Shown one piece after another: positions 1,887-35,670 of a stretch of DNA of 64,000 nucleotides. Position 1 is the first letter of the stretch; each line of letters opens with the position of its first letter. Source of the stretch: Streptococcus rubneri (GTDB lineage: Bacteria; Bacillota; Bacilli; Lactobacillales; Streptococcaceae); the NCBI RefSeq assembly GCF_004785935.1, contig NZ_SRRP01000001.1, positions 1,054,001-1,118,000 on the forward strand, written 5' to 3'. The translations under genes were made by a program, and so were the position numbers. A model generated the notes under the pieces. That model saw nothing but the letters and a program-made list of their open reading frames with translations, was not told the DNA's origin and made no database searches.

Positions 1887-4547
1887 TTATAGCCACTCCT
1901 TGTACTTACCAATATAATAGTGTTTGACCAGGGTGACACTTGCCATATAAAGGAAGAGAATCCCCGCTAGTAATAGGAAGTAAAGACTATTTAGTGGCGC
2001 TACTTTTAGCAAGGAAGCCAATGGGCCATATGGTAGGAAGGTCACAAAGAGGGCGCCCAATAAGGTCGTTGCCATGACAGCAAGGGCTGGCCGACTTTGA
2101 ACAAAGGGCAATTTTGGAGACCGCAGCATATAGATGACCATGGTTTGGGACCACATGGACTCGATAAACCAGCCGGTTTGAAAGAGCATGATGAAGAGTC
2201 CTGCACTACCAGCACCATGGACATAGCCATAGCCTGTAATCATGGGTACAATGACAAAGTAGAGAATGATGAAGGTCAGGATGTCAAAGATAGAGGAAAT
2301 AGGACCGAACCAGGCCATAAAGCGGGTAATGGATTTGGCTTCCCAGATTCGTGGTTTCTTCAAGAAGTCCTTATCCACTCGGTCAAAAGGCAAGGCAATA
2401 CAGGAAAGATCGTAAACCAAGTTCAAGACGATGAGATGGATAGGGGCCATTGGAAGGAAAGGAAGGAAAATACTGGCAAAGAGAAGGGAGAAGATATTCC
2501 CGAAATTAGAAGAAACGGTCATCTTGATGTATTTGGTCATATTGGCATAAACCTTGCGTCCTTCTACCAAGCCTTTTTCGAGGACCATCAAGTCCTTATC
2601 CAGAAGGATAACATCTGCTGTTTCTTTGGCAATATCGACAGCTGTATCAACCGAAATACCCACATCTGCTACTTTCATAGAAGGTGCATCATTGATGCCA
2701 TCTCCCATATACCCCACCTTGTGCCCATTCGCTTTGAGCTGCAAGATAATGCGTGCTTTTTGGTCTGGAGATAATTTTGCAAAAACGGTGGTTGTTTCGA
2801 CTGCTTGAGCCAACTCTGAATCAGAGAGACTGTCGATATCGCTACCCAGCAAAATGCGGTCAACATCCAGTCCCACCTTTTCACAAACCGCTTGGGTCAC
2901 TTTCTCATTATCACCCGTAAGAATTTTAGTAGCAACTCCGTATTCCGCAAGGGTATTGATGGCTGGTGCTGCGGATGGTTTTGGTGGATCCAAGAAGGCT
3001 AGATAGCCCGTCAAGATCATGTCTGCTTCATCCCCTACTTCAAAGGCATAGCCTTCCTCAAGATTTGATTTGTAACTAACCCCTAGCACGCGCAAACCTT
3101 GTTCATTCAGTTGAGCCACTTCTGCCAAGACGTCTTCCCGCACTTGGTCTGTTAGGGGGATAATCTCATCCTTGTATTCCACATAGTTAGAGACTGTTAG
3201 CATTTCTTCCAAGGCTCCCTTGGTGACCATGCTCACGATTCCCAGCTCATCCTTGACAATGACACTCATCCGACGGCGTTCAAAGTCAAAAGGCAATTCA
3301 TCAATTTTTTGGAAGCTTTGGTCCAAGCCTCTGACAATTTCGTGTTTCTTAGCTTCTCTTTCTGTCCGACTGATAATGGCGCGGTCCATCAAGTTTTTGA
3401 GGCCGGTTTGGAAGTAAGAGTTGAGATATGCCCGACGTAGGACGGATAAATCCAAGTCCCCACGAATGTCGAGTGGGTATTCGAGTACAATTTCATCTTG
3501 GGTCAAGGTTCCTGTCTTGTCCGTACAGAGGATATCAATAGCGCCTAGATCTTGAATAGCGTTGAGCTTTTTGATAACCACTTTTTCTTTGGCCATGATA
3601 ATGGAACCCTTAGCCAAGCTAGCTGTGATAATCATTGGAAGCATTTCCGGAGTCAAACCCACTCCTACACTGAGGGCAAAGACGCCTGCTTCCAGCCAGT
3701 CCCCGTCTGTCAAAGCATTGATAAAGAAGACGATGGGCACCATCACCATCATGAGTCGGATCAACAACCAAGAGATGGTGTTCATTTCTCGTTCAAAAGA
3801 GGTTGGTTCATCATAAGTATTGATGGTCTGCTCAATCGCTCCCATCATGGTTTCATCCCCGACTACTAAGACCAAGGCAGTTGCTCGGCCTGAGATGACG
3901 TTGGTCCCCATGAAAGCTAGACTCTCACTCTCCAGGAGACTATCCAGATTTTGGCCACTTGCTTTTTTTAAACAAACTTTTTCGACAGCATCACTCTCAC
4001 CAGTCAAACCGGATTGTTGGACGAAGAAGTCTCGAGAATCTAACAAGACCACATCCGCTGGAATCATGTCGCCTGCACTCAGTTTGATCAAGTCTCCCAC
4101 AACGATCTCATCAATGGGAATTTCTTCTTCCTTGCCTTCTCGAATCACTGTTGCTGTATTAACAATCATGCGAGAAAGGTTACTAGCAGCCTTGTCACTG
4201 CGTAATTCTTGGATAAAGCGAATCCCCCCTGAGAGAAGAACGAGGACGACGATAATAAGAGAGGTCGTTGGATCTTCCTCACCCGGCTTGGCTAACCAAA
4301 CATTGGTCACCAAAGAAACAAGGGCAATGAGAAGCAGGATGACTGTGAAGGGATTGATGATCGATTCAACAATCCGTTTCCAGATAGAGCTTTCTTGTCC
4401 TTTGGTAAGGACATTTTCTCCATAACTTTCCCGGTTTTCTTCTACTTGGTCTTCCGTCAATCCAGACCAGCTAGATTGATAGTTGGATAAGGTTCTTGTT
4501 TCTGCATCTTGCAATGCAGCAATGAGTCTTTCTTTTGTTGTTTGCAT
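1887..4547 (-). CDS. mgtA: Magnesium-transporting P-type ATPase
   Basis: This 886-residue membrane pump belongs to the P-type ATPases of the MgtA/MgtB class, which import Mg2+. The phosphorylation motif LCTDKTGTLTQ places the acceptor Asp at residue 343; the TGES actuator loop (SGLTGES), GDGIND hinge (YMGDGINDAPS) and about ten membrane segments are present. I start at MQTTKERL (ATG 4545-4547) because AAAAAAGGAGATTTCA precedes it; the longer open frame runs through the leader. An M-box riboswitch and terminator (4707-4920) lie upstream, which independently supports Mg2+ as the substrate. A short upstream reading frame (4580-4654) stops 32 bases before the start and may add a second layer of control. 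Confidence 0.93.
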   Translation of the reverse strand: MQTTKERLIAALQDAETRTLSNYQSSWSGLTEDQVEENRESYGENVLTKGQESSIWKRIVESIINPFTVILLLIALVSLVTNVWLAKPGEEDPTTSLIIVVLVLLSGGIRFIQELRSDKAASNLSRMIVNTATVIREGKEEEIPIDEIVVGDLIKLSAGDMIPADVVLLDSRDFFVQQSGLTGESDAVEKVCLKKASGQNLDSLLESESLAFMGTNVISGRATALVLVVGDETMMGAIEQTINTYDEPTSFEREMNTISWLLIRLMMVMVPIVFFINALTDGDWLEAGVFALSVGVGLTPEMLPMIITASLAKGSIIMAKEKVVIKKLNAIQDLGAIDILCTDKTGTLTQDEIVLEYPLDIRGDLDLSVLRRAYLNSYFQTGLKNLMDRAIISRTEREAKKHEIVRGLDQSFQKIDELPFDFERRRMSVIVKDELGIVSMVTKGALEEMLTVSNYVEYKDEIIPLTDQVREDVLAEVAQLNEQGLRVLGVSYKSNLEEGYAFEVGDEADMILTGYLAFLDPPKPSAAPAINTLAEYGVATKILTGDNEKVTQAVCEKVGLDVDRILLGSDIDSLSDSELAQAVETTTVFAKLSPDQKARIILQLKANGHKVGYMGDGINDAPSMKVADVGISVDTAVDIAKETADVILLDKDLMVLEKGLVEGRKVYANMTKYIKMTVSSNFGNIFSLLFASIFLPFLPMAPIHLIVLNLVYDLSCIALPFDRVDKDFLKKPRIWEAKSITRFMAWFGPISSIFDILTFIILYFVIVPMITGYGYVHGAGSAGLFIMLFQTGWFIESMWSQTMVIYMLRSPKLPFVQSRPALAVMATTLLGALFVTFLPYGPLASLLKVAPLNSLYFLLLAGILFLYMASVTLVKHYYIGKYKEWL

Positions 4548-4579
4548 TGAAATCTCCTTTTTTATCAGGAGCCAAACGC

Positions 4580-4654
4580 TTATAGAGTCCCGATGACACA
4601 AATCAGCGATTGGCTGGCTATGTGCGGTTCGGGATGATCGTCGATTTGTATCAT
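4580..4654 (-). CDS. Candidate 24-codon leader peptide before mgtA
   Basis: Downstream of the M-box terminator, AAAAGGAGAACACT is followed by an ATG at 4652-4654 and a 24-codon frame beginning MIQIDDHPEPH and ending in TAA at 4580-4582. The ribosome site is as good as that of mgtA. The early D-D-H-P-E-P stretch resembles the acidic/proline run of enterobacterial MgtL, whose translation falls off at low Mg2+; that family comparison is established knowledge, its application here is inference. Bases inside the frame can pair with bases just after it (AGCCAATCGCT with AGCGTTTGGCT, ten of eleven pairs), and CTCCT after the stop can pair with the AGGAG of the mgtA ribosome site. Whether it is translated is unknown. 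Confidence 0.45.
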   Translation of the reverse strand: MIQIDDHPEPHIASQSLICVIGTL

Positions 4655-4701
4655 AGTGTTCTCCTTTTCTACTTGATAGGTGAAAGGCTTCTTAAGCATA
4701 A

Positions 4702-4733
4702 GAAAAGAGCCCTCCCTCTAACAGGTAGGACTC
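4702..4733 (-). terminator. Riboswitch-controlled terminator before mgtA
   Basis: In the minus-strand transcript GAGTCCT and AGGGCTC form a seven-pair stem (one G-U), with further partial pairing inside, followed by TTTTC. It directly follows the M-box and is the likely expression platform that stops transcription at high Mg2+. Confidence 0.75.
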
Positions 4734-4777
4734 ATTAAACTCGTCGTTTATTTTTTAATGAAAATTCTCAAAAAATA

Positions 4778-4921
4778 GACCGTCCAAGCTTTAGCTCCGC
4801 AAGGCAATGAAATGAGCTTAGTCTTGACCTTTGCGATCAGGACTGTTGACCAACGAGTAGTGTCTCCACTGCTTTGCGGTAGTCATCCGTATCCTTGTGG
4901 TAGCCTCACCTACCGTTATTC
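4778..4921 (-). ncRNA. M-box (ykoK) Mg2+ riboswitch
   Basis: The minus strand reads GGTAGGTGAGGCTACCAC at its 5' end (about 4899-4916), then GGATACGGATGACTACCGC, GTTGGTCAACAGTCCTGATCG and finally GAGCTAAAGCTTGGACGG. These are the conserved blocks of the ykoK/M-box leader, including the AGGTGAGGC start and the GCTAAAGC 3' block. The position, between a promoter and a terminator ahead of an MgtA-type pump, is the standard arrangement. Mg2+ binding favours the terminator and shuts the gene off. I recognise the family by its conserved blocks; exact ends are approximate. Confidence 0.93.
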
Positions 4922-34683: not shown

Positions 34684-34918
34684 CCTCTCTCGTCTTCTCC
34701 CATCCAGACTATACTGTCGGTTGTGGAATCGCACCACATCAGCTTGCGCTCGCGGACTTCTTTTAGAGTATGGAAATGGTCTTTTCTTTTTGACGAGGCG
34801 CCAAGCTGTAGACATAACTTATAGTTAGGTAAAGCTTGGCAACAAAGTATAAAAGGAAAAGACCATTTCCTAGTAAAAGTCACCGCCGGTCGGGAATTAC
34901 ACCCTGCCCTGAAGACCC
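34684..34918 (-). ncRNA. FMN (RFN) riboswitch with enlarged variable stem
   Basis: The minus strand shows the conserved FMN blocks in order: CTTCAGGGCAGGGTG, AATTCCCGACCGGCGGT, AGTCCGCGAGC, GGTGCGATTCC, CCGACAGTATAGTCTGGATG and GAGAAGACGAGAG. Between the GGCGGT and AGTCCGCG blocks, where a short variable stem is usual, there is an insert of over 100 bases: a perfect 15-pair stem (34856-34870 with 34772-34786) capped by a second 8-pair stem (34833-34840 with 34800-34807). FMN binding should repress ribU. Confidence 0.95.
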
Positions 34919-34922
34919 CTTA

Positions 34923-35565: not shown

Positions 35566-35670
35566 GCAAAAAAATAGCCACACTGCCCGGAGTCAAGCTC
35601 AGCAAACAGCGTGGTTACGACTTCATTAACTTAACTCACAACAGGTTTGAGGTAAATCAATCAAGTTACT
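35566..35670 (-). ncRNA. Structured leader or small RNA upstream of trmL
   Basis: From the predicted start (about 35669) the minus strand can form a hairpin around TTACCTCAAACC (CTCA/TGAG, with AACTT/AAGTT outside), then a second stem in which AACCACGCTGTTT pairs with GGGCAGTGTGGCT over 12 of 13 positions (several G-U), followed by TATTTTTTT. That is an intrinsic terminator 17 bases before trmL. I do not recognise a known riboswitch class. It may be an attenuating leader or a free small RNA of about 105 bases; the ACCTC loop could pair with ribosome sites. Confidence 0.55.

Follow-up and report, generated by a model that had tools for sequence, protein, structure and literature searches.

The region upstream of mgtA in the 64,000-nt stretch of Streptococcus rubneri DNA analysed here (the whole stretch is referred to as the window) raises the following question: does a gene for a Mg2+ pump that already stands behind a riboswitch for this ion also carry a second sensor, read by the ribosome? 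The first-pass annotation of the sequence had placed an M-box and a small upstream reading frame (uORF) resembling the enterobacterial mgtL in this leader. Our analysis suggests that the leader is probably a two-stage Mg2+ gate, in which the M-box is followed by an MgtL/MgtQ-like leader peptide. If this is true, two layers would serve one ion, RNA folding and the stability of translating ribosomes, and the ribosome would act as a Mg2+ sensor far outside the enterobacteria. It would then become possible to test, with ready sequences from harmless commensals, whether regulation by intrinsic ribosome destabilisation is a general principle.

Layout of the mgtA leader

The features of the locus are presented in Table 1. 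The leader, with its M-box and uORF, is situated between a PatB-like aminotransferase frame and mgtA, the product of which lies well above the TIGR01524 cut-off of 611 bits; its closest named relatives among the best 80 of 218 relatives kept are the pumps of S. australis and S. xiaochunlingii (98%). The M-box was recovered by the RF00380 model upstream of this Mg2+ transporter gene with a score of 87 bits, where the gathering score is 44, and an E value of 1.3e-17. The terminator that had been assigned to it fared less evenly: a hairpin followed by UUUUCUU was found in folding (-17.1 kcal/mol for the 46-nt stretch, z = -2.73), but a strict terminator scan detected none in the leader. As for the promoter-like site, chance alone would give approximately one such match (1.1) in the stretch. 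The 24-codon frame with its strong ribosome site was found as described, and its acidic and proline-containing part, DDHPEP, corresponds to codons 5-10, numbering from the ATG. A longer reading of the same frame (39 aa) begins at an in-frame ATG at 4699, which has no good ribosome site. The uORF stop indeed precedes the mgtA ATG by 32 nt, although this ATG is located at 4547 and not, as first given, at 4548. Two other RNA elements on the minus strand of the window also scored above the Rfam gathering threshold, an FMN riboswitch (34688-34920) and a 23S-methyl RNA motif (35571-35666).

Table 1 Features of the mgtA locus (window positions; the last row gives positions within the named loci)
Feature	Position	Strand	Basis or remark
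PatB-like aminotransferase frame	6134-4965	minus	reading of its sequence
Promoter-like -35/-10, TTGACT-17-TATACT	4956-4928	minus	consensus scan; position suits leader
M-box (ykoK) Mg2+ riboswitch aptamer, RF00380	4924-4770	minus	covariance model and alignment
Terminator-like hairpin with U tract	4733-4707, tract to 4700	minus	fold; presumed M-box expression platform
Shine-Dalgarno of uORF, AAAAGGAG	4668-4661	minus	sequence
uORF, 24 codons, MIQIDDHPEPHIASQSLICVIGTL	4654-4580	minus	sequence, conservation, peptide-level selection
Left arm of anti-sequestor stem P1, AGCCAATCGCT	4615-4605	minus	within uORF
Shared arm, AGCGTTTGGCT	4580-4570	minus	P1 right arm or left arm of sequestor P2
CTCCT, anti-Shine-Dalgarno of mgtA (P2 lower)	4571-4567	minus	
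mgtA ribosome site (AGGAG, 4558-4554) and start region (TCAATG)	4558-4545	minus	
mgtA, Mg2+-translocating P3B ATPase	4547-1887	minus	TIGR01524 1059 bits, NF011702 1067 bits
S. cristatus-group loci (L016, L017, L018, L080): M-box; gene; uORF; mgtA	~430-585; 732-1343; 1376; ~1500		

Conservation of the upstream frame and its association with the pump

A search for the pump in GTDB genomes provided 218 relatives, and the best 80 loci were kept. The core IDD[HY][PT]EP was present in the upstream frame of 75 of these 80 loci, and the remaining five possessed diverged frames, namely, MLSDDYSEK (L028), MPNDDHPSQQ (L031), MPEDGHPEK (L033), MPNADSEP (L077, Abiotrophia) and MPEPDSKQ (L079, Granulicatella). 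Across the 247 genomes of the genus, a degenerate form of the core pattern matched once in each of 124 genomes, and the reversed pattern, used as a control, matched in none of the 247. The pump itself was found in 133 of these genomes (132 above the family cut-off and a partial gene in G145), and the core was detected in 124 of the 133 mgtA-bearing genomes and in 0 of the 114 mgtA-free ones. The conservation of the frame in relatives had been set beforehand as the check on which the idea could fail; the frame proved to be conserved and not disrupted. Eight of the nine pump genomes without the core pattern carry a diverged acidic uORF (MPNDDHPSQQ in five; MSSDDHPIS, MLSDDYSEK and MPEDGHPEK in one each). 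The ninth is a draft genome with 4% contamination (G015), in which neither the M-box motif nor an acidic frame was found in the 901 bases retrieved.

Could such a frame have been encountered by chance? Only 1 of the 39 other Shine-Dalgarno-led small frames of the window reaches the number of D, E and P residues that the uORF has at residues 2-11. The mean D/E/P number was 0.90 in these 39 control frames, 1.57 in 35 others taken from the L149-L208 regions and 3.20 in 40 leader picks. An intergenic-only control was set aside, since 5 of its 11 frames were MDDS/MDES-type frames located behind M-boxes. Searches with three uORF peptides against the Pfam and NCBIfam models gave no match at E <= 1. 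The uORF is D/E/P-rich relative to the window controls and conserved at the peptide level, and thus more than a chance frame.

To assess selection on the peptide, codon changes were counted by the Fitch method on a tree of 74 pump genes, which corresponds to the core-bearing loci except L058 (left out of the alignment and tree; runs of N), with codons numbered from the Q of QIDDHPEPH. Codons 2-8 (IDDHPEP) showed 2/0/31 changes at codon positions 1/2/3 (binomial p = 4e-13), and only two residues varied in the 74 loci, H to Y in six and the first P to T in one, while D, D, E and the second P were invariant. For nine codons of the second half (12-20, SQSLICV..), the counts were 24/17/24 (p = 0.31), with no sign of peptide-level constraint on this tree; the change patterns of the two parts differ with Fisher p = 2e-8. 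Because the position 3 bias of IDDHPEP is absent from the second half, the first half appears to be kept as a peptide by selection, and the acidic and proline residues are conserved as the first-pass annotation had expected. In S. vestibularis-type uORFs (L021, L105 and L106), an early stop follows ...SQSLI, and the acidic half is retained.

Another question is whether the uORF accompanies the riboswitch or the pump. An apparent absence of the M-box in the S. cristatus group and S. massiliensis (L033) was rejected, as cmscan found RF00380 in 20 of 20 sources, further upstream. In the four S. cristatus-group loci, the M-box lies ~790 nt upstream, and the uORF is still directly before mgtA; the M-box is followed in all four by a gene starting MK[FL]WYSS, which was scanned against Pfam in L016 alone and is GST-like there. 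Similarly, the acidic frame of L133 and L136 is located 545-575 nt after the M-box, close to the pump. The intervening genes of these two sets of loci are presumably under Mg2+ control too. Same-strand P-ATPase motifs lie downstream of the M-box in 14 of the best 30 M-box loci, and when ATG, GTG and TTG starts were counted, 13 of these 14 contained a Shine-Dalgarno-led frame with at least two acidic residues at positions 2-5 (11 with ATG, of the MDDS, MDES, MEDE and MEDS types, and two with GTG, MPEDSS and MSEDSS). The fourteenth (L135) has a weaker frame, MVFMSDHALE, and an acidic Shine-Dalgarno-led frame was found in 0 of the 16 loci of this set that have no P-ATPase motifs. This count makes the link between the uORF and the pump stronger. 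Since the frame stays near the pump in the split loci and, among these 30 loci, occurs only with P-ATPase motifs, these sequence data indicate that it belongs to the pump and not to the riboswitch. Scans of the downstream proteins of 10 M-box loci identified P-ATPases (L121, L123, L124, L127 and L139), MgtC (L126 and L137) and FtsW/RodA (L128, L130 and L131). With L134, there are four loci in which an M-box stands directly upstream of an FtsW/RodA-like gene (by Pfam in three of the four), and a Mg2+ link to cell wall elongation is possible there.

In the wider order, an M-box was found in 209 and a pump above the cut-off in 175 of 295 Lactobacillales genomes. From these, 60 pump-upstream regions were hand-picked over families f2, f3, f4, f7 and f8 (32 genera), and a search rule that ignored composition (an ATG start, the best Shine-Dalgarno, a length of 8-45 codons and a position within 330 nt) yielded a uORF in 41 regions and no frame in 19. 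Some of these picks are probably wrong; that of L187, for instance, falls inside its M-box, and MDHPAPERN lies nearer the gene. In a set of 26 genera (the first frame per genus, at least 12 aa; L174, which is shorter, was left out), residues 2-11 contained 81 D/E/P against 31.9 +/- 5.3 in shuffles of their own letters (highest of 2000: 49) and 63 D/E against 23.6 +/- 4.5. D/E/P made up a share of 0.31 at these residues and of 0.14 elsewhere in the frames (Wilcoxon p = 5e-4). At least two acidic residues were present there in 23 of the 26 genera, at least three D/E/P in 16 and any Pro in 14. The peptides outside the streptococci look mostly unrelated, e.g. MDHHQGEEVEDPDS, MPQFLEDDPAEPES, MEKGSSSDSPGDD, MEDPGSEQ, MDDSHPDQ and MSRSTNEPKEPGS. 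In a phylum-wide sample, the pump is rare, exceeding the cut-off in 18 of 219 genomes, the source genome among them; by a similar rule, an acidic frame was found in 5 of the other 17 loci (for example, MEPESSNGSNPDE, MDDVADGSS and MDTDGPSSRR) and in none of the remaining 12. Judged by sequence, the arrangement is not special to the source genome and recurs in other Lactobacillales with mostly unrelated peptides. One subgroup of acidic uORFs starts with MDDS (L121, L125, L132, L177, L180, L183, L189, L192 and L202); several of them have LLSICF or YCLFV-like ends, and in some of the loci, a small membrane-protein frame lies between the uORF and the ATPase.

Competing stems and the modelled effect of early ribosome release

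According to the first-pass annotation, a segment of the frame can pair with one just after it, and CTCCT can mask the AGGAG of the mgtA ribosome site. In the window, the two arms AGCCAATCGCT and AGCGTTTGGCT do pair, with the exception of one U-U mismatch, CTCCT is complementary to AGGAG, and the start region of mgtA can take part in the masking stem as well. These stems were assessed in 42 distinct core-holding streptococcal leaders, with identical rows and leaders longer than 125 nt in the aligned stretch (the carriers of a ~106-nt insertion, and L075) left out. P1 joins uORF codons 12-15 by 11 pairs to the segment that includes the stop and the bases just after it, and is paired in 92.9% of cells, against 18-51% when slid. 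It shows 10 further pair types (7.8 in shuffles), with two double-change cells on its own. With its extension (AUACACAG with CUGUGUAU, best conserved in the mitis and sanguinis groups), the number of double-change cells rises to 13 against 3.6 +/- 1.5, 10 of the 13 coming from one column pair.

On the masking side, pairing between the AUUGG of the shared arm and the CCAAU at the start of mgtA is possible in 96.2% of cells, against 9-66% when slid, with covariation no higher than in shuffles; the window has UUUGG with UCAAU at this place, and most relatives have AUUGG with CCAAU. The CCAAUC within the uORF resembles the CCAAUG of the gene, and exact CCAATC, ATTGG and CCAATG occur together in 29 of the 42 rows. 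CUCC-type letters can mask the mgtA Shine-Dalgarno in 84% of cells, against 78% when slid by one column, with weak covariation, and the neighbouring UGUAUGA:UCAUACA stem is formed in 30 of 30 leaders where the letters exist and is nearly invariant. No clear covariation was found for the masking stems of the streptococcal leaders, and when folded in isolation, the leader of the window's clade accommodates the P1 core together with the CTCCT:AGGAG stem. Thus, conservation of the letters supports the stems, but the compensating changes sought in them are few and come mostly from one column pair. The ~106-nt repeat-like insertion, which we take to resemble the pneumococcal RUP element, follows the uORF in L029, L030, L039, L041, L047 and L052; it is placed in the sequestor hairpin loop, and the two arms are mostly preserved. 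L075 carries a stretch similar to it around the uORF end.

Would premature ribosome release change which structure forms, as had been proposed? A static model, which included neither kinetics nor coupling to transcription, was used to calculate how much it costs to open the mgtA ribosome site with the whole uORF held open (full reading) and with only its first ten codons open (early release), for 29 leaders (the window and 28 hand-picked loci). The cost fell after early release in 23 of the 29, which is the predicted direction. It decreased from 9.1 to 4.7 kcal/mol in the window (the mgtA start being set here one base 5' of the true ATG), from 11.0 to 5.2 in the close relative L001 and from 9.0 to 3.5 kcal/mol in L069, an S. 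pneumoniae locus. In 21 of the 29 leaders, no more than 8% of 60 shuffled versions of the second half reached as low a value. Such a drop is informative because the extra free RNA alone would tend to close the site. There was no effect in six leaders, two of the S. parasanguinis type and the diverged L031, L028, L077 and L079. In S. parasanguinis-type leaders (L006-L015, L089 and L091), the uORF continues across the shared arm, leaving 18 nt between its end and mgtA, and this extended frame would alter the operation of the switch. Several of 11 lowest-energy folds inspected (among them the window, L038, L069 and L075) retain Shine-Dalgarno pairs after early release; therefore, the effect lies in the ensemble cost rather than in a clean switch, and the case for the switch step is weaker for it.

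The same calculation was applied to 19 other genera (the first locus per genus; uORFs shorter than 18 aa and gaps outside 8-80 nt were left out). The predicted direction was obtained in 11 of them, strongly (3.5-9.3 kcal/mol) in nine, all from f2 and f8, and no gain was obtained in eight, from f3, f4 and f7. Because of doubtful start sites (for instance, in L155 and L167) and the membrane-protein frames between the uORF and the ATPase, a mechanism acting on the Shine-Dalgarno is not claimed for all genera.

A putative two-stage gate and its alternatives

At high Mg2+, M-boxes favour the terminator that follows them, and the M-box of the window would do the same in the first stage. In the second stage, at adequate Mg2+, ribosomes would read the uORF through and hold its second half unfolded, so that the post-stop arm would pair with the mgtA Shine-Dalgarno and start, and mgtA would be poorly translated. 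When Mg2+ is low, ribosomes with the nascent chain D-D-H-P-E-P would drop off around codons 5-10, by intrinsic ribosome destabilisation; the second half, now free, would capture the post-stop arm in P1, the mgtA site would become cheaper to open, and mgtA would be translated. Polyamines or ribosomal proteins could tune this layer, which depends on ribosome stability. The leader carries two layers, the second of which has the features of this type of control: its placement, a selected acidic and proline-containing start, a second half acting at the RNA level and competing stems, the last being the weakest of the four. Selection, stems and fold direction are thus in favour of the MgtL-like interpretation offered by the first-pass annotation; the translation of the uORF, the Mg2+-dependent drop-off itself and the effect on MgtA are inferred.

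Can the same observations be explained otherwise? The Pro and His codons of HPEPH are suitably placed for amino-acid attenuation, in which the uORF would sense charged tRNA-Pro or tRNA-His (as proposed for the Pro codons of mgtL/mgtP), ribosomes would stall at P or H, and Mg2+ would be sensed by the M-box only. Proline is also enriched, with 18 in residues 2-11 of the 26 genera, yet the common feature of these frames is the acidic residues (23 genera, against 14 with any Pro), and it is the His and the first Pro of the core that are replaced in streptococci, by Tyr in 6 and Thr in 1 of the 74 loci, with D, D, E and the second P constant throughout. We consider this reading unlikely. A slim chance remains for an arrest or coupling peptide, the full translation of which would activate mgtA: the shared arm starts at the uORF stop codon, and CTCCT follows 8 nt further, so a ribosome at the stop would cover both and open the mgtA site, and the S. 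parasanguinis-type frame, with its end 18 nt before the gene, suits such coupling. This possibility leaves the conserved acidic start unexplained, however, and unlike in known arrest peptides, the second half is free of peptide-level constraint (24/17/24), and the frame ends early in three S. vestibularis-type loci.

The control could also be mainly transcriptional, with uORF translation gating an unseen Rho-dependent or RNase site, as in E. coli mgtL, and the Shine-Dalgarno stems being secondary. The action of MgtL via Rho, as reported in the available part of the source (PMC11282234), and the absence of a fold gain in 8 of the 19 other genera agree with this. The streptococcal stems, in contrast, converge on the mgtA ribosome site and start. 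To our knowledge, many streptococci have no rho gene, which also counts against Rho, and the chance of this explanation seems slimmer still. Returning to the two-stage gate, the uORF is most likely a Gram-positive variant of the MgtL/MgtQ kind by its mode of action, as judged by analogy, and not a proven member of a family. More broadly, we lean towards acidic-peptide ribosome destabilisation being a general Gram-positive Mg2+ sensor, reinvented or rapidly diverging before MgtA-type pumps across the Lactobacillales and in a few other Bacillota and stacked behind the M-box, such that the same ion would gate transcription and translation; in streptococci, the uORF RNA would mimic the mgtA start (CCAAUC and CCAAUG) and compete with it for one shared arm.

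The usual description of the M-box riboswitch ends at the terminator; the window aptamer is a plain member of RF00380 (ykoK), but a conserved small frame follows the terminator here. Among the matches listed in searches of open PMC papers by words and peptide letters, no title or abstract dealt with a Gram-positive acidic uORF before mgtA, and no pairing of an M-box with a ribosome-destabilising uORF was found in print. The nearest case among these is that of M. tuberculosis pe20, in which an M-box is likewise followed by a conserved uORF (rv1805A). It differs in that the M-box controls this uORF via a translational platform and Rho, in a species without MgtA/B, and the words mgtL and destabili- are absent from the text of this paper as far as available (PMC12810186). 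A Ribo-RET study of S. pneumoniae D39, searched in its accessible text by peptide and DNA fragments, did not reveal the streptococcal uORF peptide (PMC9426450), which may reflect growth conditions or an absence of translation.

Two enterobacterial systems provide the closest functional parallels, as described in the available parts of the cited papers. The mgtL of E. coli and Salmonella is also a uORF of an mgtA leader with an acidic and proline-containing N-terminus (EPDP there and DDHPEP here), and low-Mg2+ drop-off has been proposed as the on-switch of mgtA, as we propose for the streptococcal uORF; unlike the latter, it is Gram-negative and PhoP-controlled, its output is Rho-dependent termination, and an M-box is not mentioned in these parts (PMC11282234, PMC11552253). 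In E. coli, ribosomes leave MgtL at the EPDP motif in low Mg2+ and mgtA is transcribed, and a reporter is no longer expressed once amide substitutions are made (PMC11282234); a comparable but weaker effect is possible for corL, which precedes corA (PMC11552253). The mgtQ of the Salmonella mgtC-mgtB intergenic region is likewise a short Shine-Dalgarno-led uORF before a gene for a Mg2+ P-ATPase with acidic residues near its start: D2 and E5 of this 8-aa peptide weaken its own translation and favour the stem that frees the mgtB ribosome site (PMC8092293). There too, competing stems free (2:3) or mask (3:4) the ribosome site, and weak uORF translation favours the transporter; compared by these features, mgtQ differs in having 8 codons and lying inside an operon, with no M-box mentioned in the excerpts (PMC8092293). 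The two systems also diverge in the role of the start codon: in mgtQ, element 1 is occluded while a ribosome occupies the uORF, and mgtB falls when the start codon is lost (PMC8092293), whereas in the streptococcal uORF, the second half of the frame itself forms the anti-sequestor arm, and our model predicts that loss of the start codon would raise mgtA.
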